The notes beneath the pieces are model-generated. The model was not told the DNA's origin. It saw only the letters and a program-made list of their open reading frames with translations, and did not search any database. Positions 1 through 7,518 of a stretch of DNA of 7,518 nt are shown in pieces (the stretch's first letter is position 1; each line of letters starts with the position of its first letter). Source of the stretch: Lachnospiraceae bacterium (GTDB lineage: Bacteria; Bacillota_A; Clostridia; Lachnospirales; Lachnospiraceae); assembly GCA_016291475.1 (NCBI GenBank), contig JAEEXJ010000125.1, forward strand, positions 1 through 7,518, written 5' to 3'. A program made the position numbers and the translations under genes.

Positions 1-48
1 AATTAACGTTAAAATAAGTGCTAAAGTTAATGTTTTAAATCGCTTCAT
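1..48 (-). CDS. N-terminus of a probable exported protein (partial)
   Basis: Only the first 16 codons lie in the window; the gene continues beyond base 1. The peptide begins MKRFKTLTLALILTLI, a short basic n-region (K2, R3, K5) followed by an unbroken hydrophobic stretch, which is the pattern of a Sec signal peptide or lipoprotein leader. The ATG at 48-46 is supported by an AAAGGA ribosome site about ten bases upstream, and a good promoter lies at 105-134. A start codon, SD and promoter in the right order make this more than a chance reading. The mature protein cannot be seen, so no function is offered; a lipobox cysteine, if present, would be outside the window. Confidence 0.6.
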   Translation of the reverse strand, partial: MKRFKTLTLALILTLI

Positions 49-104
49 AAATTAGTTTTCCTTTCTGTTGAACTATCAACCATTTTGGGAGTATCCACAC
101 CTCT

Positions 105-134
105 TTTATATCACGAAATGAAAGTTAATGACAA
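105..134 (-). promoter_or_regulatory. Sigma-A-type promoter for the exported-protein gene
   Basis: On the minus strand, TTGTCA (134-129, one mismatch to TTGACA) is followed after 18 bases by TATAAA (110-105, one mismatch to TATAAT). It points at the ATG at 48 and leaves a leader of about 50 bases. A direct repeat, CAACCATTTT on the plus strand, occurs at 77-86 in the leader and at 132-141 over the -35 region, so the repeat could be a regulator site; that part is speculative. Confidence 0.55.
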
Positions 135-160
135 CCATTTTTTGCATTATCCCCGTTTAC

Positions 161-595
161 TTAACCACCTTGTAATCTTCCGTCATAATCCAGATATTTC
201 ACAGATAAGTGGTTTTCTTTGCATATTTGATGGACTTCGTCCGAAGTATTGATTCCACAAATAATTGTAACTCTTATCATCTTTTTTATATAGTTTCTGA
301 CATGAGTTCCTGTATATCCATACATAGCACACATGCATATACTGTAAAGGTAACCCAGAAAAGAATTGCTGATGCAATCATCATAATAATCCCTGCTTGT
401 GCTGACACCCATTCTTTTTAATATATATTTCGTATATGATTCTAACCGCTCATCATATATGTATTGCGCCTGGTATTCTAATACAATTTTCGGCATTATC
501 CTCTTCACTTTATCTATACTTTGCGGAATATATATTTCCATCTTTCTTTTGCATATCTCATATCTGTTCTTTTCGTAGTAAGCCCTTCGCCTCAA
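161..595 (-). CDS. Hypothetical protein, probably the 3' part of a gene broken by an in-frame TGA
   Basis: The reading frame encodes 144 residues from a TTG at 595, but that start is weak: the only purine-rich stretch lies directly against it and no properly spaced SD is seen. The frame stays open upstream to the TGA at 637-635 that ends the preceding gene, so both frames are in register and read as one protein of about 286 residues if that codon is ignored. The linking peptide (KVYSEREKKLRARLRRRAYY) is highly basic and looks like a continuous helix across the join. The C-terminal half has a cysteine-containing hydrophobic stretch (SFLGYLYSICMCAMYGY). I do not recognise the family. It is either a downstream fragment that is no longer translated or a short gene using a poor TTG start. 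Confidence 0.5.
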   Translation of the reverse strand: MRRRAYYEKNRYEICKRKMEIYIPQSIDKVKRIMPKIVLEYQAQYIYDERLESYTKYILKRMGVSTSRDYYDDCISNSFLGYLYSICMCAMYGYTGTHVRNYIKKMIRVTIICGINTSDEVHQICKENHLSVKYLDYDGRLQGG

Positions 596-634
596 CCTTG
601 CTCTCAGCTTTTTCTCTCTTTCGCTATATACCTT

Positions 635-1018
635 TCACTCTCTTGTCTTTTGGTTCAACATGCCTACCCACGCGCCGTTTTCGTCATTCCATTTCATTAT
701 GTACTCTATTTGTTCCGGCAATTTTTTCTTCCATATTTCTTTTACAAGTTCTACATCTTTTGTCCGGCCATTCTTCGCAAATCTTACTTCTTCCGTACAA
801 TTCGGTATCATAAGCACTTCACTTAAGTCCATAGATAGTGCAACAGCAAATGCACGCTCATCCGTCGCCTTCAAAAATGTACTGTTCATGCTCATCTGGC
901 CATTTTGTCTTATGATCAGTTTCTTTTCATATAACCTTTTTGTACCATGAGATACATAGTACTTCTTTACATCAATAATGTCCTCCAATTTTCTTTTTGC
1001 AGTAGTCTTCTTTTCCAT
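635..1018 (-). CDS. Hypothetical protein, 127 residues (probably the 5' part of a nonsense-interrupted gene)
   Basis: The ATG at 1018 has a clear AGGAG ribosome site seven bases upstream, so translation initiation here is credible. The product starts with a lysine-rich segment (MEKKTTAKRKLEDIID) and contains an acidic/hydrophobic middle (DERAFAVALSMDLSEVLMIP) and a charged C-terminal part ending QKTRE before TGA. No signal peptide or membrane segment is evident, so it is probably cytosolic. I do not recognise the family. The frame continues without another stop for 157 codons after the TGA (feature 161-595), suggesting the original product was about 286 residues and that a CGA or similar codon mutated to TGA. 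The surrounding DNA is A/T-rich with much AGA and ATA, unlike the genes after 5688, which fits acquired or decaying DNA. Confidence 0.6.
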   Translation of the reverse strand: MEKKTTAKRKLEDIIDVKKYYVSHGTKRLYEKKLIIRQNGQMSMNSTFLKATDERAFAVALSMDLSEVLMIPNCTEEVRFAKNGRTKDVELVKEIWKKKLPEQIEYIMKWNDENGAWVGMLNQKTRE

Positions 1019-1067
1019 AATTATTCTCCTGTCTGATATTATTGTGTGCTTTCGCCACAGTACTCCA

Positions 1068-1082
1068 ATATATCAGATATAT
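1068..1082. promoter_or_regulatory. 15-bp perfect palindrome upstream of the 1018 gene
   Basis: ATATATC-A-GATATAT is a perfect 7-1-7 dyad about 50 bp upstream of the ATG at 1018. On the minus strand it contains TATAT-type -10-like sequence, so it may be an operator over the promoter, but no good -35 is visible and A/T-rich palindromes arise easily by chance. Confidence 0.25.
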
Positions 1083-1099
1083 AGCATAAAGAAAACAGA

Positions 1100-1127
1100 A
1101 AAGGACATACCACACGGCATGTCCTTT
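1100..1127 (-). terminator. Intrinsic terminator of the AAA ATPase gene
   Basis: AAAGGACAT (1100-1108) pairs perfectly with ATGTCCTTT (1119-1127) across a 10-base loop. Read on the minus strand, the 9-bp stem is followed by TTCTGTTTTCTTT, a T-rich tail. It lies about 45 bases past the stop of the ATPase gene. The plus-strand tail is poor in T, so it probably acts mainly on minus-strand transcripts. It separates the ATPase from the downstream 1018 gene. Confidence 0.75.
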
Positions 1128-1172
1128 GAGGTGTTTATATTTATTTATCAAGGCTCTTCATCGTCGGGATCT

Positions 1173-2405
1173 TTAAATATACCAGACAGGAACGATAAGA
1201 TTATTGCTGTCTATTGCCGAGAGTTCGTCCCTAAGGCAGATGATAGCACCGGCGCCTCTGGGCACAGTCGCTTTGTCCAGCACCTTAAATGCTCCGGCAA
1301 GTTCTGTTCCCGGATTAACGGAACGCTTGATCTCGAGCGGATGAAGCATACCGTCACTTTCAAGTATCATATCGACTTCTTTATTATCTTTGTCCCGATA
1401 ATACCAGAACAGACAGTCTTTTGCAGCGTTCTTGTATGACTTGATGATCTCCATGACAACATAGTTTTCAAGAATGTGTCCGGCCAAGGCACCGTTTGCC
1501 AGGATTTCGGGAGAAGAATACTTAGTCAGATAAGCTACAAGCCCGGTATCGAAGAAATAAAGCTTCGGTGCTTTAATTGTCCTGTGGAGAGCGTTATTGA
1601 TATAGGGGCGTAAAAGGGTTATGATGTCCGATTTTTCCAAAACCTGCAGCCATCGCTTTGCAGTATCGTCATTGATCCCTACATCGCTTGCAATGGCGTG
1701 AACATTGAGTACTTCACCGATCCTTGAGGCAGCAGATCGAATAAAGTCCTGAAAGAGCAGTTTGTCTACTCCTTGGATAAGATCGCTCACATCACGTTCG
1801 ATATACGTCTGGATATAACTGCTGTAGTAGACATCTCTGTCAGTATATCTCCCACTGATGAGACCAGGCATTCCGCCCTTCCAGATACGTTCAAAAATCT
1901 CGTTCAGTGAAGCAGATGTGTGGGTTTTCTTTCTCCTTTTTAATACTTCCAGATCTATGGCAAAAGGATCAGAAGTTCCGGTGCCGTATGATTCATGTTG
2001 AGATAGCGGGGGAAGCCTCAAGATAGCAACGCGGCCGGCCAGAGATTCCTGAGCCAGCTCCATCAGCCTGAACGCCTGCGATCCTGTAAGCCAAAAAGAT
2101 CCCGGTTCGGCTCCACGATCTATTTCGATCTTAATGTACGAAAACAGTTCAGGAGCATACTGTACTTCGTCGATCATTATGGGAGGCCGGTGAAGCTTAA
2201 GGAACATAGCAGGATCCCTCTTGGCGAGGGCGCGTTCTTCCAAATCGTCCAAAGTGACGATCTCGCGTTCTGTATTCTGTTCTTTCATTATGCTTTCAAA
2301 CAAAGTACTCTTGCCGACCTGCCTGGCACCGGTGATCAGTATGGCCGAGTATTCTTTATTCAGGTCTATGATCTTGGATTTTAAATCTCTTTCTATAAAA
2401 CGCAT
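1173..2405 (-). CDS. AAA-family ATPase with C-terminal DUF4143 domain
   Basis: This 410-residue protein has the standard length and layout of the AAA_14/DUF4143 family. Walker A is GARQVGKST (26-34), Walker B is PIMIDE (75-80), and WLTGSQ (105-110) is the sensor-like motif. SLAGR (121-125) follows, as in relatives. The C-terminal DUF4143 region carries EVD (343-345) and LEIK (357-360), the spacing of a PD-(D/E)XK nuclease-like fold. No signal peptide is seen, so it should be cytosolic. The ATG at 2405 has a perfect AAGGAGG eight bases upstream. Many copies of this family occur in Clostridia and Bacteroidetes genomes, often as solitary genes; its physiological role is not established, and DNA processing or defence is inference only. 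The gene is monocistronic, with promoter 2444-2472 and terminator 1100-1127, and looks intact. Confidence 0.93.
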   Translation of the reverse strand: MRFIERDLKSKIIDLNKEYSAILITGARQVGKSTLFESIMKEQNTEREIVTLDDLEERALAKRDPAMFLKLHRPPIMIDEVQYAPELFSYIKIEIDRGAEPGSFWLTGSQAFRLMELAQESLAGRVAILRLPPLSQHESYGTGTSDPFAIDLEVLKRRKKTHTSASLNEIFERIWKGGMPGLISGRYTDRDVYYSSYIQTYIERDVSDLIQGVDKLLFQDFIRSAASRIGEVLNVHAIASDVGINDDTAKRWLQVLEKSDIITLLRPYINNALHRTIKAPKLYFFDTGLVAYLTKYSSPEILANGALAGHILENYVVMEIIKSYKNAAKDCLFWYYRDKDNKEVDMILESDGMLHPLEIKRSVNPGTELAGAFKVLDKATVPRGAGAIICLRDELSAIDSNNLIVPVWYI

Positions 2406-2418
2406 AGCGCAGTCCTCC

Positions 2419-2455
2419 TTCGGCTATAATCTGACGCAATCATATTTTAGCCGAA
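2419..2455. promoter_or_regulatory. Operator-like inverted repeat over the ATPase -10 element
   Basis: TTCGGCTATAAT (2419-2430) and ATTTTAGCCGAA (2444-2455) form an 11-of-12 dyad separated by 13 bp. The upstream arm contains the -10 hexamer of the ATPase promoter and the other arm abuts the SD. Because transcription should begin between the arms, a DNA operator, possibly for autoregulation, fits better than an mRNA hairpin. Confidence 0.45.
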
Positions 2456-2472
2456 ACAAAAAATAAATACAA
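2444..2472 (-). promoter_or_regulatory. Promoter of the AAA ATPase gene
   Basis: On the minus strand TTGTAT (2472-2467) is followed after 17 bases by TAAAAT (2449-2444), with about 38 bases to the ATG at 2405. The -10 is five of six to consensus and the -35 only three of six. Confidence 0.5.
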
Positions 2473-2477
2473 GACTT

Positions 2478-2651
2478 TTATGTTTCCCTACAGTTAAATG
2501 CAACCAATTTGTACTTGTAGCTATCATCTTTAGGCTTTATATTATCCATTCCTATGTTCAAGTAGCCTTTACGATTCTCGAAAGCAAACATACCGAGGAC
2601 AGAGAATACAGATCGCTGGAGCAGGTTAAGAATCATATTCCATACTATCAT
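2478..2651 (-). pseudogene. Possible gene relic, 57-codon open frame
   Basis: The otherwise gene-free stretch 2473-2640 holds an open minus-strand frame from ATG 2651 to TAA 2478. Its second half (for example NRKGYLNIGMDNIKPKDDSY) reads like the C-terminus of a folded protein. There is no SD before the ATG, and the frame overlaps the promoter of the divergent YD gene, so it is more likely a truncated remnant than a live gene. The plus strand over the same bases is also open, without a start codon, so chance is a real alternative. No family is recognised. Confidence 0.25.
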
Positions 2652-2657
2652 GATTCA

Positions 2658-2666
2658 TGTTATAAT
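2658..2666 (+). promoter_or_regulatory. Extended -10 promoter for the YD-repeat gene
   Basis: TGTTATAAT contains the perfect TATAAT hexamer (2661-2666) with the TGn extension. It lies 54 bases before the ATG at 2721. The -35 region at 17-bp spacing (TTCCAT) is poor, which is normal for an extended -10 promoter. This probably starts the plus-strand run of immunity-like genes. Confidence 0.6.
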
Positions 2667-2720
2667 CAGATAGTTAATCATGGAGCAGATTAAACAGAAT
2701 GAAAAAGAAGGAGGCTTTGA

Positions 2721-3362
2721 ATGAACCGAGAGAGACTTGAACGCGATTCTGATGGAAATATCACAAAAATGTATCGTTATAACGCAAAAGGGGAACTGAC
2801 TTATACTCATGTGAGTGACTGGGAAGATGGTCGTATCATCCGTAAAACCAGCTATGATTCAAACGGCAATATGACTGCATCTTTTCCGTATATTTACGAT
2901 GACCGTGGAAACAATACGGAGGGCACATGGTTTGTATTTAACAAAGGTGTGCTGATGAAAGCAGAATTTGTCTATGATGATAAGAACCAGATGATTGAAA
3001 GGATCCATTTTGGTACCGAAAGTATCGCTACAAACAAAACGTTCCAGACATTCGATGAAAAAGGAAGGCTGGCCGTTTCAAAATATTATGAAGCATGGCC
3101 GGACTGTGCTCCTGTCTATACTTATTACGAATACGATGATACCGGTTTCACGTTGAAAAGTACAACAGAAGACGAAAACCATCACATTCTGCACTATGAA
3201 GTGCTTACTCCGAATGAGTTTAACAAGGTAGCTGAGTATACCAGTTACGACGGGGATGGAAAACCTGTTTATACATACAGGTATTATTACGATGAGGATG
3301 GAAATAAGATAAAAGCAGAAAGATATGATGGGGAAGGAAATCTCGTCTCGACTGAAAACTGA
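2721..3362 (+). CDS. YD-repeat (RHS-like) small cytosolic protein, probably truncated by a frameshift
   Basis: The 213-residue product is built of short repeats of the Y-D-x-x-G-N/K type: RDSDGNITKMYRY, TSYDSNGNMTA, YDDRGNNTEG, FDEKGRLAVSKYYE, TSYDGDGKPVYTY, YYDEDGNKIKAERYDGEGN. These resemble the YD/RHS repeats of large toxin-delivery proteins but occur here in a short protein without signal peptide or toxin tip. The ATG has a perfect AAGGAGG six bases upstream and an extended -10 promoter. The stop TGA at 3360 follows an A4 run. In the -1 frame the next 40 codons are open and protein-like, up to a TGA that overlaps the TTG start of the HEAT gene, so the original protein may have been about 252 residues. 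Its role is unknown; position among WapI-like genes suggests an immunity or accessory function. Confidence 0.75.
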   Translation: MNRERLERDSDGNITKMYRYNAKGELTYTHVSDWEDGRIIRKTSYDSNGNMTASFPYIYDDRGNNTEGTWFVFNKGVLMKAEFVYDDKNQMIERIHFGTESIATNKTFQTFDEKGRLAVSKYYEAWPDCAPVYTYYEYDDTGFTLKSTTEDENHHILHYEVLTPNEFNKVAEYTSYDGDGKPVYTYRYYYDEDGNKIKAERYDGEGNLVSTEN

Positions 3363-3475
3363 TAGCCATCAAGGATGGAAAAGTTGTCGCCATATTCGGA
3401 ACGTTAACTGATATTGGAAATATAAAACCCGCGTCAATTATTGAGCCGGATTATTCCATAGGAGCAATGATTTGA
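3356..3475 (+). pseudogene. Open C-terminal tail, probably the frameshifted end of the YD-repeat gene
   Basis: This frame has no start codon but reads KLIAIKDGKVVAIFGTL, then TDIGNIKPASIIEPDYSIGA, ending MI before TGA (3473-3475). Composition and pattern look like genuine coding sequence. It follows the YD gene directly in the -1 frame; one extra A in the run at 3355-3358 would join the two. Its stop overlaps the TTG start of the HEAT gene as TTGA, the arrangement of translationally coupled operon genes, which supports this being the original end of the upstream gene. Alternatively it is the tail of an unrelated deleted gene. No canonical -1 slippery heptamer is present. Confidence 0.55.
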
Positions 3476-4077
3476 ACGAATCAGAACTTTATAAAGAACT
3501 GGGAATGATGACGAAGGATAAGAGCAAGTGGGATGAGAATATCCCTTATGTGTCATCTCTTCTTAATCATGAGTCTGTAAAGATACAGGCAAAAGCGCTG
3601 TGGCTGCTTGGTGAGATGGGACTTGAATATCCTGATTCTGTACAAACTGCAGTACCGGTGCTTGCTTCATTCTGTGATAGTGAGGATCCTCTTTTAAGGG
3701 AGCGTGCCGTAAATGCCCTCGGTAGAATTGGGAGGGGCAATTACAGTTTGATCGAACCATATTGGACAGAACTGTTTCGTTTTGCATCTGATAGTGAACC
3801 CAAAGTGCGTTTGAGTTTTATCTGGGCATCTGAAAACATAGCCACGAATACTCCGGATATTTATAAGGATCATATGTTGGTATTTGAGCCGCTCCTGCAC
3901 GATACAGATGATAAGGTCAGGATGGAAGCTCCGGAAATCTTTCGGGTGCTTGGGAAACGCAGACCGGAGATTGTTTTTCCTTTTATTGAGCAATTACAAA
4001 AGATAGCGGAAACAGATAGCAATCGCGTGGTCAGAATACATAGTCTCGGAGCAATTAAGGCAACAACATCAAAATAG
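3472..4077 (+). CDS. HEAT-repeat protein
   Basis: The 201-residue protein is made of about five helical HEAT-like repeats, roughly residues 24-55, 57-90, 93-130, 133-165 and 167-201. Each has an N-terminal helix with spaced leucines, a D/S-E/D-x-x-V/L turn (NHESVKIQAKALWLLGEMG; DSEDPLLRERAVNALGRIG; DSEPKVRLSFIWASENIA; DTDDKVRMEAPEIFRVLG), and a second amphipathic helix. Such proteins bind partner proteins or nucleic acid, and no enzymatic motif is present. The TTG start is chosen because AGGAG (3460-3464) sits seven bases before it; the nearby ATG at 3467 runs into TGA after two codons. The start overlaps the stop of the preceding open tail by TTGA, implying former coupling. There is no signal peptide. 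An immunity-like role is inferred from context only. Confidence 0.82.
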   Translation: MNESELYKELGMMTKDKSKWDENIPYVSSLLNHESVKIQAKALWLLGEMGLEYPDSVQTAVPVLASFCDSEDPLLRERAVNALGRIGRGNYSLIEPYWTELFRFASDSEPKVRLSFIWASENIATNTPDIYKDHMLVFEPLLHDTDDKVRMEAPEIFRVLGKRRPEIVFPFIEQLQKIAETDSNRVVRIHSLGAIKATTSK

Positions 4078-4101
4078 TTTTATACTATTGTTTTACGATG
4101 C

Positions 4102-4115
4102 CAGATCGGGATCTG
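4102..4115 (+). promoter_or_regulatory. Dyad just upstream of the first WapI-like gene's ribosome site
   Basis: CAGATC-GG-GATCTG is a perfect 6-bp inverted repeat ending two bases before the GAGGG ribosome site of the gene at 4126. In RNA it would be a tight hairpin with a very short loop, so it may equally be a protein-binding site. No function can be assigned. Confidence 0.25.
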
Positions 4116-4125
4116 TGAGGGAAAA

Positions 4126-4539
4126 ATGTACAGAATTGAGACAGACACATTCATATTAGAGCTTTCTCCGGAGATTCATGAACAGGACTTTGCATATCCT
4201 GTAAATGTAACTCTGGGCGTGAAGGTTTCCAGTTATGGCTACTCGGCTGATACATATATGGACGTCGGTGTTCAGGGTATAGCCGAATTTGCGGTTCAGC
4301 TGAAGAATCTCTATGAAATATTGTCAGGAAAGTCAAGACTGGAAGAACCATACAGCGTTCAGAATTATATTGAGTTCATTGCTGAAACAGGCGGTCATAT
4401 AAAAGTCATAGGACGTTTGAACAATAAAAATGATTTTGGCTACACACAGGAAATAGACTTTGAAAACGAGATCGATCAGACTCATCTGAGAAATTTTATC
4501 AACCAGTTATTTGCTGATTTCAGGAAGTATAATAAATGA
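4126..4539 (+). CDS. WapI-like immunity protein (first paralogue)
   Basis: The 137-residue protein matches the layout I know for the WapI-type immunity family: an N-terminal beta segment (FILELSPEI), a strand pair VKVSSYGYSADTYMDV, a helix ending LKNLYEILSGKSRLEE, the GGHIKVIGRL strand and the C-terminal FENEIDQTHLRNFINQL helix. In Bacillus subtilis, WapI protects against the C-terminal tRNase toxin of WapA. Membership here rests on the G-H-I and I-D-Q-T-x-L signatures, not on a database search. A paralogue lies at 5224-5616, sharing SYG(Y/F)SAD, GGHI and IDQT-LR. The ATG follows GAGGGAAAA. There is no signal peptide, so it is cytosolic. No toxin gene is visible nearby, so the matching effector, if any, is elsewhere or foreign. 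Confidence 0.75.
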   Translation: MYRIETDTFILELSPEIHEQDFAYPVNVTLGVKVSSYGYSADTYMDVGVQGIAEFAVQLKNLYEILSGKSRLEEPYSVQNYIEFIAETGGHIKVIGRLNNKNDFGYTQEIDFENEIDQTHLRNFINQLFADFRKYNK

Positions 4540-4722
4540 GTAGGCTTCCAACTGAATGATGATCAGAAACACTACGTCGCAAATCCCTCTGTGATATTAG
4601 CCAGAGCATGGGCTTACAGGGACTATCGCAGCAAAGCGTTTGTTATATATGCAGATGAAACTCCGGTGGAAATGGCTATGTACTATGACATTGAAGATCC
4701 TGATTGCTGCTCTTTGCGGTGA
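4540..4722 (+). pseudogene. GNAT acetyltransferase fragment (missing start and C-terminal half)
   Basis: Immediately after, and in frame with, the stop of the WapI-like gene, the sequence reads VGFQLNDDQKHYVANPSV, then LARAWAYRDYRSKAFVIYAD, then ETPVEMAMYYDIEDPDCCS, to TGA 4720. This matches the N-terminal region of spermine/spermidine-type GNAT enzymes: L-x-x-x-Q-x-x-Y-V-A, the A-x-A-Y helix, I-Y-A-D-x-x-P-V and M-Y-Y-D-x-x-D. No start codon is present. The frame stops just before the acetyl-CoA-binding motif (Q/R-x-x-G-x-G), so it cannot be active. A short frame further on (GDKESDDSWVEIE, ending at TAG 4757-4759) could be the original C-terminus left by an internal deletion, but that is weak. 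The intact GNAT at 6872 belongs to a different subgroup. Confidence 0.65.
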
Positions 4723-4765
4723 TAAGGAATCCGATGATTCGTGGGTAGAGATTGAATAGTATTAT

Positions 4766-4837
4766 ACGGACGTAGCGCAATTAGTAGAGCGGCTGTCAAG
4801 TAGACGGTTGGTTGCGGGTGCAAATCCTGTCGTCCGT
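4766..4837 (+). ncRNA. tRNA-like element 1 (degenerate)
   Basis: The 72-nt unit folds as a cloverleaf. The acceptor is ACGGACG/CGTCCGT with 7 of 7 pairs. The anticodon stem is GCTGT/ACGGT (5 pairs, two G-U), with loop CAAGTAG, and the T-stem is GCGGG/CCTGT (5 pairs, two G-U). The D-stem GCGC/GAGC has one mismatch. Near-invariant positions are broken: the D-loop AATTAGTA lacks the GG pair, position 33 is A instead of U, and the T-loop is TGCAAAT instead of TTC. No CCA is encoded. It is therefore tRNA-derived in architecture but unlikely to work as a normal tRNA. The loop sequence CTGTCAA, typical of Asp(GUC), occurs but out of register with the stem. A five-base spacer separates it from a second unit. 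Confidence 0.6.
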
Positions 4838-4842
4838 TTTAT

Positions 4843-4914
4843 ACGGGCGTGGCTCAATGGATCAGAGTAGCGGGTAGTTAATCGTAAGACTGTGGTTCGA
4901 TTCCTATCGCCCGT
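4843..4914 (+). ncRNA. tRNA-like element 2 (degenerate)
   Basis: A second 72-nt unit has acceptor ACGGGCG/CGCCCGT (7 of 7 pairs), D-stem GCTC/GAGT, a D-loop with GG, and a consensus T-loop TTCGATT. The anticodon arm is damaged: GCGGG-TAGTTAA-TC-GT looks like a normal arm that lost one base from its 3' strand, again with A rather than U at position 33 if the anticodon is read as GTT. The T-stem TGTGG/CCTAT pairs at only two positions. No CCA is encoded. Both units are preceded by TTATACGG and followed by CCGTTT. The fifth acceptor pair is A-U in unit 1 and G-C in unit 2. It lies 35 bases before the DUF4177 gene and is probably in the same transcript. Confidence 0.6.
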
Positions 4915-4949
4915 TTAACTTCAGTATTATCAAGCAAAGGAGATTTAAA

Positions 4950-5147
4950 ATGGAAAAGTTCGAATACAAAGTGGTAACTTATGATCCCAATGGTTTCTTT
5001 GGTGGCAATGTACAGGTCAATAAGATTGAAGAGCAGCTTAACCTGCTTGGTGATGATGGATGGGAAATGATTAGTTGTACATCCTCTAACCAAAGCTATG
5101 GATCGACCAAAAGTTTGGTGTGCATTTTTAAAAGAAGGAAGGATTAA
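4950..5147 (+). CDS. DUF4177 domain protein
   Basis: The 65-residue protein has the family pattern from end to end: FEYKVVTYDP, then GFFGGNV, I-E-x-Q-L-N-L-L-G-D-D-G-W-E-M-I-S, and a final CIFKRRK strand. The conserved W in GWEMI and the terminal F-K-R are the best diagnostics. DUF4177 proteins are small, cytosolic and of unknown biochemical function. The ATG has AAGGAG seven bases upstream. It sits between the tRNA-like pair and the second WapI-like gene and reads in the same direction, so it probably shares their transcript. It is full length for the family and appears intact. Confidence 0.85.
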   Translation: MEKFEYKVVTYDPNGFFGGNVQVNKIEEQLNLLGDDGWEMISCTSSNQSYGSTKSLVCIFKRRKD

Positions 5148-5223
5148 TAAATTCGCAGTTTGGGGAGATGATAGTGAATTGTCTCGGAAAAATATATTTC
5201 AGAATAACAGAACAGAGGAATTT

Positions 5224-5616
5224 ATGTACAAGATTGATACAAATGATTTTTCGTTACTATTTGAGCCATATATCGATCATGGTGCGTTCGGGGATAAGAA
5301 CATTGAGCGCTTGCGTGTAAGGGTAACCAGTTATGGCTTTTCTGCAGATGCCACAATGAATGTTGATAAAAAGTGGCTGGCTGATTTTGCAAGGGAATTG
5401 AATGTGCTTTATGAAAACCTTAAAGGAGGAGCTGAGCTGGAGGAATATAGGGGACACTCAAAAATACATTTTTCCTTTTTGACCGGCGGTCATATACATA
5501 TTATGGGGACGCTCTATGATTCTCATGAACAGGAGTTAAACTTCTCAAACAGTATTGACCAGACTGAATTAAGGAAATTTGCAAAGTCGCTTTATCATGA
5601 TCTGTGTGAAGTATAG
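5224..5616 (+). CDS. WapI-like immunity protein (second paralogue)
   Basis: The 130-residue product shares the fold pattern of the protein at 4126: a start MYKIDTNDFSLLFEPYI against MYRIETDTFILELSPEI, then VTSYGFSADATMNV, LNVLYENLKGGAELEE, FLTGGHIHIMGTL and SIDQTELRKFAKSL. The frame is open upstream to 5098, but the ATG at 5224 is chosen because GAGG lies just before it and the protein similarity between the paralogues begins exactly there; an upstream start would overlap the DUF4177 gene. Like its paralogue it is predicted cytosolic, and no toxin partner is visible. The divergence between the copies suggests they recognise different toxins. This is inference from family behaviour. Confidence 0.75.
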   Translation: MYKIDTNDFSLLFEPYIDHGAFGDKNIERLRVRVTSYGFSADATMNVDKKWLADFARELNVLYENLKGGAELEEYRGHSKIHFSFLTGGHIHIMGTLYDSHEQELNFSNSIDQTELRKFAKSLYHDLCEV

Positions 5617-5687
5617 CAATGTCTATTATCTCGGAATATATTACAGGATAATGAAATAAGCAAATCGGCGTTTTATGAGGTGATGAT

Positions 5688-6035
5688 ATGGCACGACGTT
5701 CGGTATTTGATATGCGTTTTCAAGATGTCTACTCTGTATTGATCCAGAAGGCAGAACGTAAAGGAAGGACGAAAGAGGAAGTCGAGGAGGTGACTGCATG
5801 GCTCACCGGATACTCGGCGGAGCAGATCGATGATGCAATGAATTCAGATATTACATATGGTGAGTTTTTCTCTGACACACCTGCCTATCATCACCGTGCG
5901 GCTCTTATTACCGGAAAGATATGTGGGATTCAGATAGAGACGATTGAAGATCCTTTGATGAAGAAAATCCGGCAACTTGACAAGCTGGTGGACGAACTTG
6001 CAAAGGGAAAACCTATGGAGAGTATTTTAAGATGA
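5688..6035 (+). CDS. DUF2200 family protein
   Basis: The 115-residue protein matches DUF2200 along its length: a VYSVLIQKAERKGRTKEEV helix, WLTGYSAEQID, TYGEFFSDTPAYH, ITGKICGIQIETIEDPLMKK and the conserved tail IRQLDKLVDELAKGKPME-SILR. The motifs K-G-R-T-x-x-E-V, L-T-G-Y, I-x-G-x-I-C-G and D-P-L-M are the strongest evidence. The function of the family is unknown; it is small and soluble. The ATG is preceded by AGGTGAT. Its last four bases, ATGA, contain the start of the next gene, so it is translationally coupled to the DUF1801 gene. I found no convincing promoter in the 71 bases before it. Confidence 0.92.
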   Translation: MARRSVFDMRFQDVYSVLIQKAERKGRTKEEVEEVTAWLTGYSAEQIDDAMNSDITYGEFFSDTPAYHHRAALITGKICGIQIETIEDPLMKKIRQLDKLVDELAKGKPMESILR

Positions 6036-6439
6036 AGTGGAAATGTCCGAAATGCGGGAGGAAGTTCAGTAAACAGAATCAGGGTCATTACTGTATGAAA
6101 CCGCAGAATATCGATGAATACATTGCGGTACAGGATGCATCGGTCCAGCTCAGGCTGAAAGAAGTCCGCGACGTTTTGACAGCAGCATTACCGGAGGCTG
6201 AGGAACGCATATCATGGTCGATGCCTACTTTCTGGAAGGGGAGAAACATCATTCACTTTGCAGCCGCCAAAAAGCATATTGGGCTATATCCGGGTGATGG
6301 CGCAACCGAAGCATTCAAAGATGAATTGACAGGATTTGATGTGAGTAAGGGGACGATCCGGCTGCCGTATGACCAGGCATTGCCTGCGGATCTGATCGCC
6401 AGAATCGCCCGGTGGTGCTATGAGGAGTACAGAAAATGA
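6032..6439 (+). CDS. DUF1801 domain protein with N-terminal zinc-ribbon-like motif
   Basis: The 135-residue protein begins with a C5-P-K-C8 knuckle followed by H19-Y-C21, which could bind zinc. The rest is a DUF1801 (YdhG-like) domain: YIAVQDASVQLRLKEVRDVL, ALPEAEERISWSMPTFWKG, NIIHFAAAKKHIGLYPG, then KGTIRLPYDQALPADLIARI. DUF1801 proteins are small alpha/beta proteins with no agreed function. The gene overlaps DUF2200 by ATGA at its start and the DUF5655 gene by ATGA at its end, so all three are translated from one message. The zinc motif is read directly from sequence; metal binding is inference. Confidence 0.88.
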   Translation: MKWKCPKCGRKFSKQNQGHYCMKPQNIDEYIAVQDASVQLRLKEVRDVLTAALPEAEERISWSMPTFWKGRNIIHFAAAKKHIGLYPGDGATEAFKDELTGFDVSKGTIRLPYDQALPADLIARIARWCYEEYRK

Positions 6440-6834
6440 GCGCGGGAGATCAAGTCATAGACAGTGAGACACTTCTGTTCTTTGAGAAACAGCCTGCAGC
6501 ATTACCAATCTATGAGTGCTTTGCTGAGCGGCTTTACGAACGGTTCCCTGACACAAAACGAAGAGTACAGAAGACACAGATCACATTCTCTAACCGTTAC
6601 GTCTTTGCCTGCATATCATTCCAAAGGGTGAAACGAAAGGCGGAACTTCCTGATCCGTATCTGGTAGTTACACTCGGGCTGCCTTTCCCGTTGGAGTCGG
6701 ATCGGGTCGCGGTTAAATCAGAGCCATACCCGGGCAGGTGGACGACACATATCGTAATTGGAAGCATGTCAGAGGTTGATGACGAACTATTTGACTGGGT
6801 CAGACAGGCCTATGCATTTTCGGAAATAAAGTGA
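6436..6834 (+). CDS. DUF5655-type protein
   Basis: The 132-residue product has the features I associate with DUF5655: an N-terminal LLFFEKQPAALPIYECFAERL helix, VQKTQITFSNRYVFACISF, the VKRKAELPDPYLVVTLGLP strand region, and a C-terminal RWTTHIVIGSMSEVDDELFDWVRQAY segment. The R-W-T-H-H-type motif appears here as R-W-T-T-H. The biochemical function is unknown. The start ATG overlaps the preceding stop by ATGA, so it is coupled to the DUF1801 gene. These domains are known to occur fused or adjacent to DUF1801 or DUF4287, which supports a joint role. No signal peptide is seen and it appears intact. Confidence 0.8.
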   Translation: MSAGDQVIDSETLLFFEKQPAALPIYECFAERLYERFPDTKRRVQKTQITFSNRYVFACISFQRVKRKAELPDPYLVVTLGLPFPLESDRVAVKSEPYPGRWTTHIVIGSMSEVDDELFDWVRQAYAFSEIK

Positions 6835-6871
6835 TAGTGTCCATTTCAGAAGGCAGGGAGAAAAGTAAAGC

Positions 6872-7393
6872 GTGAAAAACAATATTGAAATAAAACTGGT
6901 AGACACGGGCAACTTTACCGAGTCCTCCATGGATTCTTTCGATAGGTTTCAAGAGGTCAGGAATGTCTATCGCATTGAAAACGGCAGGCTTGTTCTGAAA
7001 AATCACCCATTTACAGAAAGCTGGTCTTTCGAACGAAGGAGAGAAAAGGCGGCGGAGATACTATCAGGCAGATATGTTACTTTCTGCGCTTTTGATGGCG
7101 ATACAGTTGTCGGAGAGATCATGCTCATACCGGAACTGAACATGTACCGCCTGATCATCGACAGCTTTCATGTTTCCCGCAATTGCAGGCGCAGCGGGAT
7201 CGGACGAAGGATGATTGAAACGGTCAAGGATTATGCGAAAAACCGCGGAGCGGAGGCTTTGTATGCTTCATGCTGCTCCTCAGAAGAAACCATTACTTTT
7301 TATATGGCGATGGGCTTTAGACCGAGTGCGCATCCGATCCCATGCTATGTCGAAAATGAACCTTTTGATATCCAGATGGAGCTCAAATTGTAG
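6872..7393 (+). CDS. GNAT-family N-acetyltransferase
   Basis: The 173-residue protein has the GNAT core. CAFDGDTVVGEIML (72-85) gives beta strands 2-3. IIDSFHVSRNCRRSGIG (95-111) is motif A, ending in the acetyl-CoA pyrophosphate loop R-R-S-G-I-G (106-111). The helix RRMIETVKDYAKNRGAEAL follows, then the C-terminal ETITFYMAMGFRP (139-151). It would transfer an acetyl group from acetyl-CoA to an amine substrate that cannot be deduced. The GTG start has GGGAG 11 bases upstream, slightly long, and I see no better start. The gap to the DUF5655 gene is 37 bases and that to the next gene is 19 bases, so it is probably in the same operon. All motifs are intact. Confidence 0.9.
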   Translation: MKNNIEIKLVDTGNFTESSMDSFDRFQEVRNVYRIENGRLVLKNHPFTESWSFERRREKAAEILSGRYVTFCAFDGDTVVGEIMLIPELNMYRLIIDSFHVSRNCRRSGIGRRMIETVKDYAKNRGAEALYASCCSSEETITFYMAMGFRPSAHPIPCYVENEPFDIQMELKL

Positions 7394-7412
7394 TTTGCAG
7401 AGGAGATATGCA

Positions 7413-7518
7413 GTGACAATCTACGATATTTCGCAGGAGGTTTTCGGCTGCCAGGTATATCCCGGCGACCCTGCGCCGGAAAGAAGGGTGCTTTCTTCAA
7501 TGGAAAAAGGCGACCTAT
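7413..7518 (+). CDS. Cyclase/kynurenine formamidase-family protein (partial, N-terminus)
   Basis: The first 35 codons are present and the gene runs off the right edge. The peptide reads MTIYDISQEVFGCQVYPGDP, then APERRVLSSMEKGDLY. IYDISQ-x-V-F and V-Y-P-G-D-P are the opening signatures of the metal-dependent cyclase family (PF04199), which includes arylformamidases; the metal-binding histidine motif would be further downstream. The GTG start is decided by AGGAG (7401-7405) seven bases before it; the ATG at 7408 meets TGA after two codons. It follows the GNAT gene closely, suggesting cotranscription. Substrate cannot be known from this fragment. Confidence 0.8.
   Translation, partial: MTIYDISQEVFGCQVYPGDPAPERRVLSSMEKGDL

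Follow-up and report, generated by a model that had tools for sequence, protein, structure and literature searches.

A tandem pair of tRNA-like elements among immunity genes of a Lachnospiraceae bacterium: a matched A18-G55 elbow in one unit, decay in the other

Results

Gene neighborhood

The stretch of DNA analyzed here, referred to as the window, comprises 7,518 nucleotides of a Lachnospiraceae genome (assembly GCA_016291475.1, contig JAEEXJ010000125.1, positions 1 to 7,518). It carries two tandem tRNA-like elements within a run of small genes, DUF2200, DUF1801, and DUF5655 types among them. On the plus strand, the pair is preceded by a WapI-like immunity protein gene (4126..4539; PF24716, E 2.5e-12), whose product shows 83-86% identity to two Oribacterium loci, and by a short frame (4543..4719) that looks by eye like a gene remnant and, over 4552-4719, matches no Pfam family. 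Directly downstream, on the same strand, is a DUF4177 protein gene (4950..5147; PF13783, E 1.9e-12), and beyond it a second WapI-like immunity protein gene (5224..5616; PF24716, E 9.5e-10). A scan of 4500-5260 on the plus strand, of little power, with shuffled sequences giving 2.1 sites, finds no promoter-like site. The immunity gene row is flanked by a gene for a DUF4143 AAA ATPase (1173-2405), which shares 81-89% identity with six proteins assigned to Butyrivibrio. The host is probably a Lachnospiraceae of the rumen, close to Butyrivibrio. An open reading frame of 213 amino acids (2721-3362), situated ahead of the immunity genes, has YD-type-like repeats by eye and no Pfam match; it could be a fragment detached from an Rhs/WapA-type toxin carrier.

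Compared by BLAST with 33 loci that carry WapI genes in other genomes, the window matches in the region of its upstream WapI-like gene only, with no match to the tRNA pair. Of these 33 loci, many of which are incomplete, 4 have a tRNA or tmRNA according to ARAGORN, and cmscan of 12 of the 33 adds no weak tRNA; no recurrent linkage of such tRNA-like RNAs to WapI genes was seen in these searches. Some WapI-like genes do lie within a few hundred bases of a tmRNA, of tRNA-Val and tRNA-Arg, or of tRNA-Leu (L005, L011, L031), perhaps as island insertion points.

The tandem pair

The two tRNA outlines, each of 72 nucleotides, occupy 4766-4837 and 4843-4914 and are separated by five bases. Both are closed by perfect acceptor stems (ACGGACG/CGTCCGT in unit 1, ACGGGCG/CGCCCGT in unit 2), with pair 5-68 being A-U in the former and G-C in the latter. 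The cmscan alignment agrees on all these points with the sequence-only reading that first drew attention to the pair. The Infernal check proposed there places both units in the tRNA family RF00005 above its gathering score of 29: unit 1 (4766..4838, plus strand) scores 37.3 bits with an E-value of 3.7e-5, and unit 2 (4843..4915, plus strand) scores 29.9 bits with an E-value of 0.004. ARAGORN calls unit 1 alone, as tRNA-Thr(AGT). U73 is present in both units and CCA is encoded in neither; A33 is likewise common to both, in unit 2 only if the short anticodon arm is read, by eye, from its 3' side. The compensated acceptor pair had also been used as an argument for selection. The compensation is real, although it carries little weight because it concerns one pair in two sequences.

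Read by eye in the same alignment, unit 1 has a D-loop without GG, A33 in place of U33, and TGC replacing TTC, exactly the letters that had been listed as missing. Unit 2 has the normal D-loop GG and T-loop TTC, an anticodon arm one base short, and a T-stem register with only two standard pairs, again as claimed. Acceptor stem and position 73 agree between the units at 13 of 15 letters. For the core of unit 2, unit 1 ranks fifth in likeness, no nearer than several unrelated tRNAs. Unit 2 is best read as a decayed tRNA relic.

A matched A18-G55 elbow in unit 1

The further claim that the core of unit 1 is broken does not hold, because its odd letters A18 and G55 are halves of one contact that have been swapped together, as in many phage tRNAs, while the other elbow contacts checked are intact. 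In ordinary tRNAs, the 18-55 contact is formed by G with U, the latter as pseudouridine (PMC7912444). Unit 1 has A18 opposite G55, replacing G18 and U55, and its D-loop and T-loop changes are thus both partners of a single tertiary contact. The contacts U8-A14, A15-U48, G19-C56, U54-A58, and G53-C61 are kept, as is the purine at 57, and the elbow contacts 18-55 (in the A18-G55 variant), 19-56, and 54-58 are all present. G12-A23, which also occurs in the Clostridia tRNA-Trp genes L237 and L238, is the sole exception to a contact list that is otherwise either standard or A18-G55. In suppressor tRNAs obtained by laboratory selection, Doyon and colleagues reportedly found in 2004 that U at position 55 demands G18 and that G at position 55 demands A18. 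Judged from its base identities, there is good support for unit 1 retaining the letters needed to fold into an L.

We did not find A18 with G55 in a tRNA in the open-access literature searched, and the excerpts available of PMC7912444, PMC4810234, and PMC7609411 mention neither A18 nor G55. Covariance scores are low, at 37.3 bits for unit 1 and 36.3 bits for a copy of it in another genome, G047 (described below), where it is the weakest among 27 tRNA matches. Minimum-energy folding returns no cloverleaf for either sequence and prefers another shape.

A conserved copy of unit 1 beside conjugation genes

Searching the DNA of 397 genomes from the family that includes Oribacterium sp. P6A1 returned a single strong match, in G047, at 96% identity over 77 nucleotides (E 6.6e-30). 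It spans unit 1 alone; the other 44 of the 45 matching genomes, G276 among them, gave weak matches (E 0.0014 to 0.09 at a threshold of 0.1). Within the tRNA, the copy differs from unit 1 at positions 34, 39, and 59 only, the change at 39 exchanging U31-A39 and U31-G39 between the copies, and it retains every odd feature of unit 1. Flanking agreement extends for three bases upstream and one downstream, beyond which the sequences are unrelated. ARAGORN calls the copy as Thr with anticodon TGT. On its 8.7 kb contig, the copy adjoins conjugation genes, with TrbL, PrgI, TraG-like, NikA-like, and SpoVG genes nearby; seven proteins of the contig were tested, and no WapI-like protein is among them. 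The copy is a solitary gene, located 13 bases downstream of a promoter-like site (9 of 12 positions, 17-nucleotide spacer) and upstream of a terminator-like hairpin of 12 bp, sites that are suggestive only, as shuffles give 0.4 of each.

No other homolog of comparable strength was found among 391 genomes of the class, 392 of the order, 103 and 130 of the family, and 79 of the genus, sets that overlap; the order search met G047 again. In the 79 genus-level genomes, which belong to the genus of a Butyrivibrio MAG, unit 1 has no homolog. The class search returned ordinary tRNA-Trp and tRNA-Thr genes: it gave matches at 74-78% in 21 of 391 genomes, and 12 loci read from it are 11 tRNA-Trp genes and one tRNA-Thr gene. 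Two further loci of this search, L231 and L234, are tRNA-Trp as well. The search of related genomes that had been proposed for the pair therefore yields one 96% homolog for unit 1, while searches with the whole pair give no close copy of unit 2. The accompanying argument against random decay divides in the same way. It stands for unit 1, whose odd features are all kept in a near-identical copy within unrelated flanks and which shows three compensated acceptor pairs (see below), but not for unit 2, whose anticodon arm and T-stem appear to have undergone ordinary decay.

The A18/G55 pattern occurs in 2 of the 397 family genomes, in the conjugative element of G047 and in a prophage of G276; the G18/U55 pattern, one letter longer, matches 42 of 90 genomes of the same family. 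The prophage tRNA (L226:7883-7955) combines A18/G55 with a perfect acceptor stem and T-stem and a shortened anticodon arm, and precedes head scaffold and major head genes. Window positions 4700-4980 have no match among named phages, and an exact 18-letter pattern of unit 1 has none in IMG/VR. The G047 copy matches six named plasmid records, in which the matched stretch is unannotated, and 22 named phage records, all at 60-80% identity; the 20 phage matches listed are tRNA-Trp except for one tRNA-Val and one tRNA-Arg. Three of these named-element matches were read, and all have G18/U55 and a Trp-type loop.

Covariation of positions 18 and 55 in viral tRNAs

Fixed-pattern scans of IMG/VR returned 15 stretches with A18/G55, 5 with A18/U55, 13 with G18/G55, and at least 120 with G18/U55. 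Four distinct sequences were recovered from the 13 G18/G55 matches; they have no proper anticodon stem and were judged not to be tRNAs. From 235 viral loci, we collected 245 distinct full tRNAs with an eight-nucleotide D-loop, of which 178 are G18/U55, 57 A18/G55, 6 A18/U55, 4 G18/C55, and none G18/G55. Among 105 bystander tRNAs, which match none of the fetching patterns and were thinned at 85% identity, the counts are 93 G18/U55, 8 A18/G55, and 4 G18/C55, with neither A18/U55 nor G18/G55. Positions 18 and 55 covary (Fisher p 5e-12 on an A/G by G/U table that omits the 4 G18/C55 cases). When tRNAs were fetched by an A18 D-arm, blind to the T-loop, and thinned (n = 50), 44 have G55 and 6 have U55; the swap is therefore not strictly obligatory. 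From these counts, the A18-G55 elbow is natural and occurs often among phage tRNAs. Relaxing the D-loop rule, with 23 genome loci (L224-L246) pooled with the viral loci, gives a noisier table (n = 337: G/U 272, A/G 40, A/U 17, G/G 2, others 6), probably through uncertainty over which base is position 18 in long D-loops. We rely on the strict eight-nucleotide rule, whose 18-55 and position-33 counts cover the viral loci only.

The A18/G55 viral tRNAs have many different anticodons, and 17 of 50 loci with such a tRNA also carry a G18/U55 tRNA. Two named phages provide examples: Salmonella phage PVP-SE1, whose A18/G55 tRNA-Ile has CCA encoded and is flanked by tRNAs with the TTC T-loop of ordinary type, and Brochothrix phage ADU4, through its tRNA-Lys. 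A further candidate, the tRNA-Thr of Bacillus phage Mater, proved on checking to be ordinary G18/U55. U33 is missing in at most 11 of 45 tRNAs of the A18/G55 class versus 7 of 151 (p 2.8e-4), the 11 being an upper bound because position 33 was set by a fixed offset and shifted arms (for example, L068) inflate the count. A33 is rare in the same counts (1/45 and 1/151).

Descent and anticodon of unit 1

Apart from the G047 copy, the sequences nearest to the core of unit 1 are the Clostridia tRNA-Trp L231 and the viral tRNA L220, both at 78%. The D-stem of unit 1, G12-A23 included, is of the form seen in tRNA-Trp L237 and L238, from which its acceptor differs at pairs 2-71, 5-68, and 6-67, all compensated by eye. 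The phage tRNA-Trp L080 has all 14 acceptor letters in common with unit 1 and is A18/G55 as well. Unit 1 has neither the CCA anticodon nor the G73 of tRNA-Trp; its G35, U36, C2-G71, and U73 instead resemble phage Thr-type tRNAs. C2-G71 with U73 is found, by a rough count, in 9 of 22 tRNAs having G35-U36, and also in the Clostridia Thr gene L245. Neither unit 1 nor the G047 copy has U33 in a seven-base anticodon loop; both have A33, with C32 and G38 able to pair. A two-base shift of the anticodon arm that would restore U33 was dropped, since by eye it takes C25 from the D-stem.

Discussion

We consider it somewhat more probable than its negation that unit 1 is a captured mobile-element tRNA with an A18-G55 elbow, lying with a decayed neighbor among immunity genes. 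Unit 1 would have been brought in by a mobile element, such as the one suggested by the conjugation genes at the G047 copy, and would descend from a tRNA-Trp-like body that came to resemble Thr tRNAs at 35-36, 2-71, and 73. Because the A18-G55 contact would lock the elbow, a full L fold is expected, and with it cleavage by RNase P and addition of CCA. Decoding is doubtful, since U33 is missing and C32-G38 can close the loop, and unit 1 is probably a poor decoder. As part of the mobile element, it was probably expressed as a spare or sacrificial tRNA, presumably charged, that would differ from host tRNAs at the places read by tRNA-cutting toxins and tRNA-modifying enzymes. The window copy, captured among immunity genes with no recognized promoter of its own, would be made solely by read-through.

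The evidence from the window itself is also consistent with both units being dead tRNA genes of mobile-element origin, unit 1 merely being younger. The low-power scan reveals no promoter-like site ahead of unit 1, unit 2 is clearly damaged, the short frame upstream resembles another remnant, and the pair is missing from the 79 genomes of the likely genus. We regard this as possible though on balance unlikely, as unit 1 and a copy in unrelated flanks share their odd bases and differ at three positions only. The location of the pair between two PF24716 genes, on one strand, raises a different idea, namely that it is the RNA part of an immunity cassette, a decoy or cleavage-resistant tRNA directed against a WapA-type tRNase. 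In Bacillus subtilis, WapA is a tRNase to which wapI confers immunity (PMC5566331), and changed anticodon loops of phage tRNAs have been proposed to resist anticodon nucleases (PMC10264068). However, neither the 33 other WapI loci, many of them incomplete, nor the proteins tested on the G047 contig show such an association, and this idea appears very improbable. Least credible is a role for unit 1 as a functional threonine tRNA, reading ACN codons in spite of A33. The ARAGORN calls for unit 1 and its copy, the C2-G71 and U73 combination, and the existence of phage tRNAs lacking U33 would favor it, but A33 is rare among the viral tRNAs, the anticodon loop can be closed by C32-G38 in both copies, and A1-U72 is not the usual Thr pair. 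A broader and more speculative proposal, which we hold to be improbable although less so than the last two, is that a widespread class of mobile-element tRNAs is defined by A18-G55, cannot carry pseudouridine 55, drifts from U33, and is selected as an outline misread by host tRNases or modification enzymes; unit 1 would be a member that does not decode and has been captured into an immunity island.

Reading unit 1 as a captured mobile-element tRNA places it near several known systems. Like phage tRNAs proposed to evade tRNA-cutting defenses, it would be an extra, mobile tRNA with an altered anticodon loop; relative to those tRNAs as described in the excerpts of PMC10264068, it also swaps 18-55, loses U33, lies among immunity genes, and has no recognized promoter. 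Phage tRNAs needed for lysogeny (PMC10865867) are likewise supplied by a mobile element. Ordinary tRNA pseudogenes provide a fitting description of unit 2, whereas unit 1 differs in being compensated and in having a conserved copy. The suppressor tRNAs of Doyon and colleagues (2004) are said to owe their A18-G55 'specific purine trap' to laboratory selection; the contact would be the same as in unit 1, where it is natural and, among phage tRNAs, common. The non-proteinogenic tRNA-Gly of Staphylococcus, which serves cell-wall bridges, resembles unit 1 in being without the usual D-loop and T-loop letters, although we know of no matched 18-55 swap in it. No partner ligase was recognized among the window proteins scanned.

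Given their low scores with standard models, A18-G55 tRNAs are easily mistaken for pseudogenes. Should tRNAs of phages and conjugative elements regularly use A18-G55 as an alternative way to form the elbow, many A18-G55 tRNAs would be structurally sound, and they would be natural tRNAs lacking the U from which pseudouridine 55 is made. With matched A18/G55 and G18/U55 pairs, the reasons for which mobile elements carry tRNAs would then become testable. In the thinned set of A18/G55 phage tRNAs, a joint change is likewise seen at positions 54 and 58 (U-A 33, G-G 9, A-A 6, others 4), with G-G in L252, L276-L279, and L317 and A-A in L258, L286, L298, and L309, as if the reverse-Hoogsteen 54-58 pair had alternatives in these tRNAs. 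Four of them (L299, L312, L323, and L283) have enlarged anticodon regions, possibly intron-bearing or rearranged.
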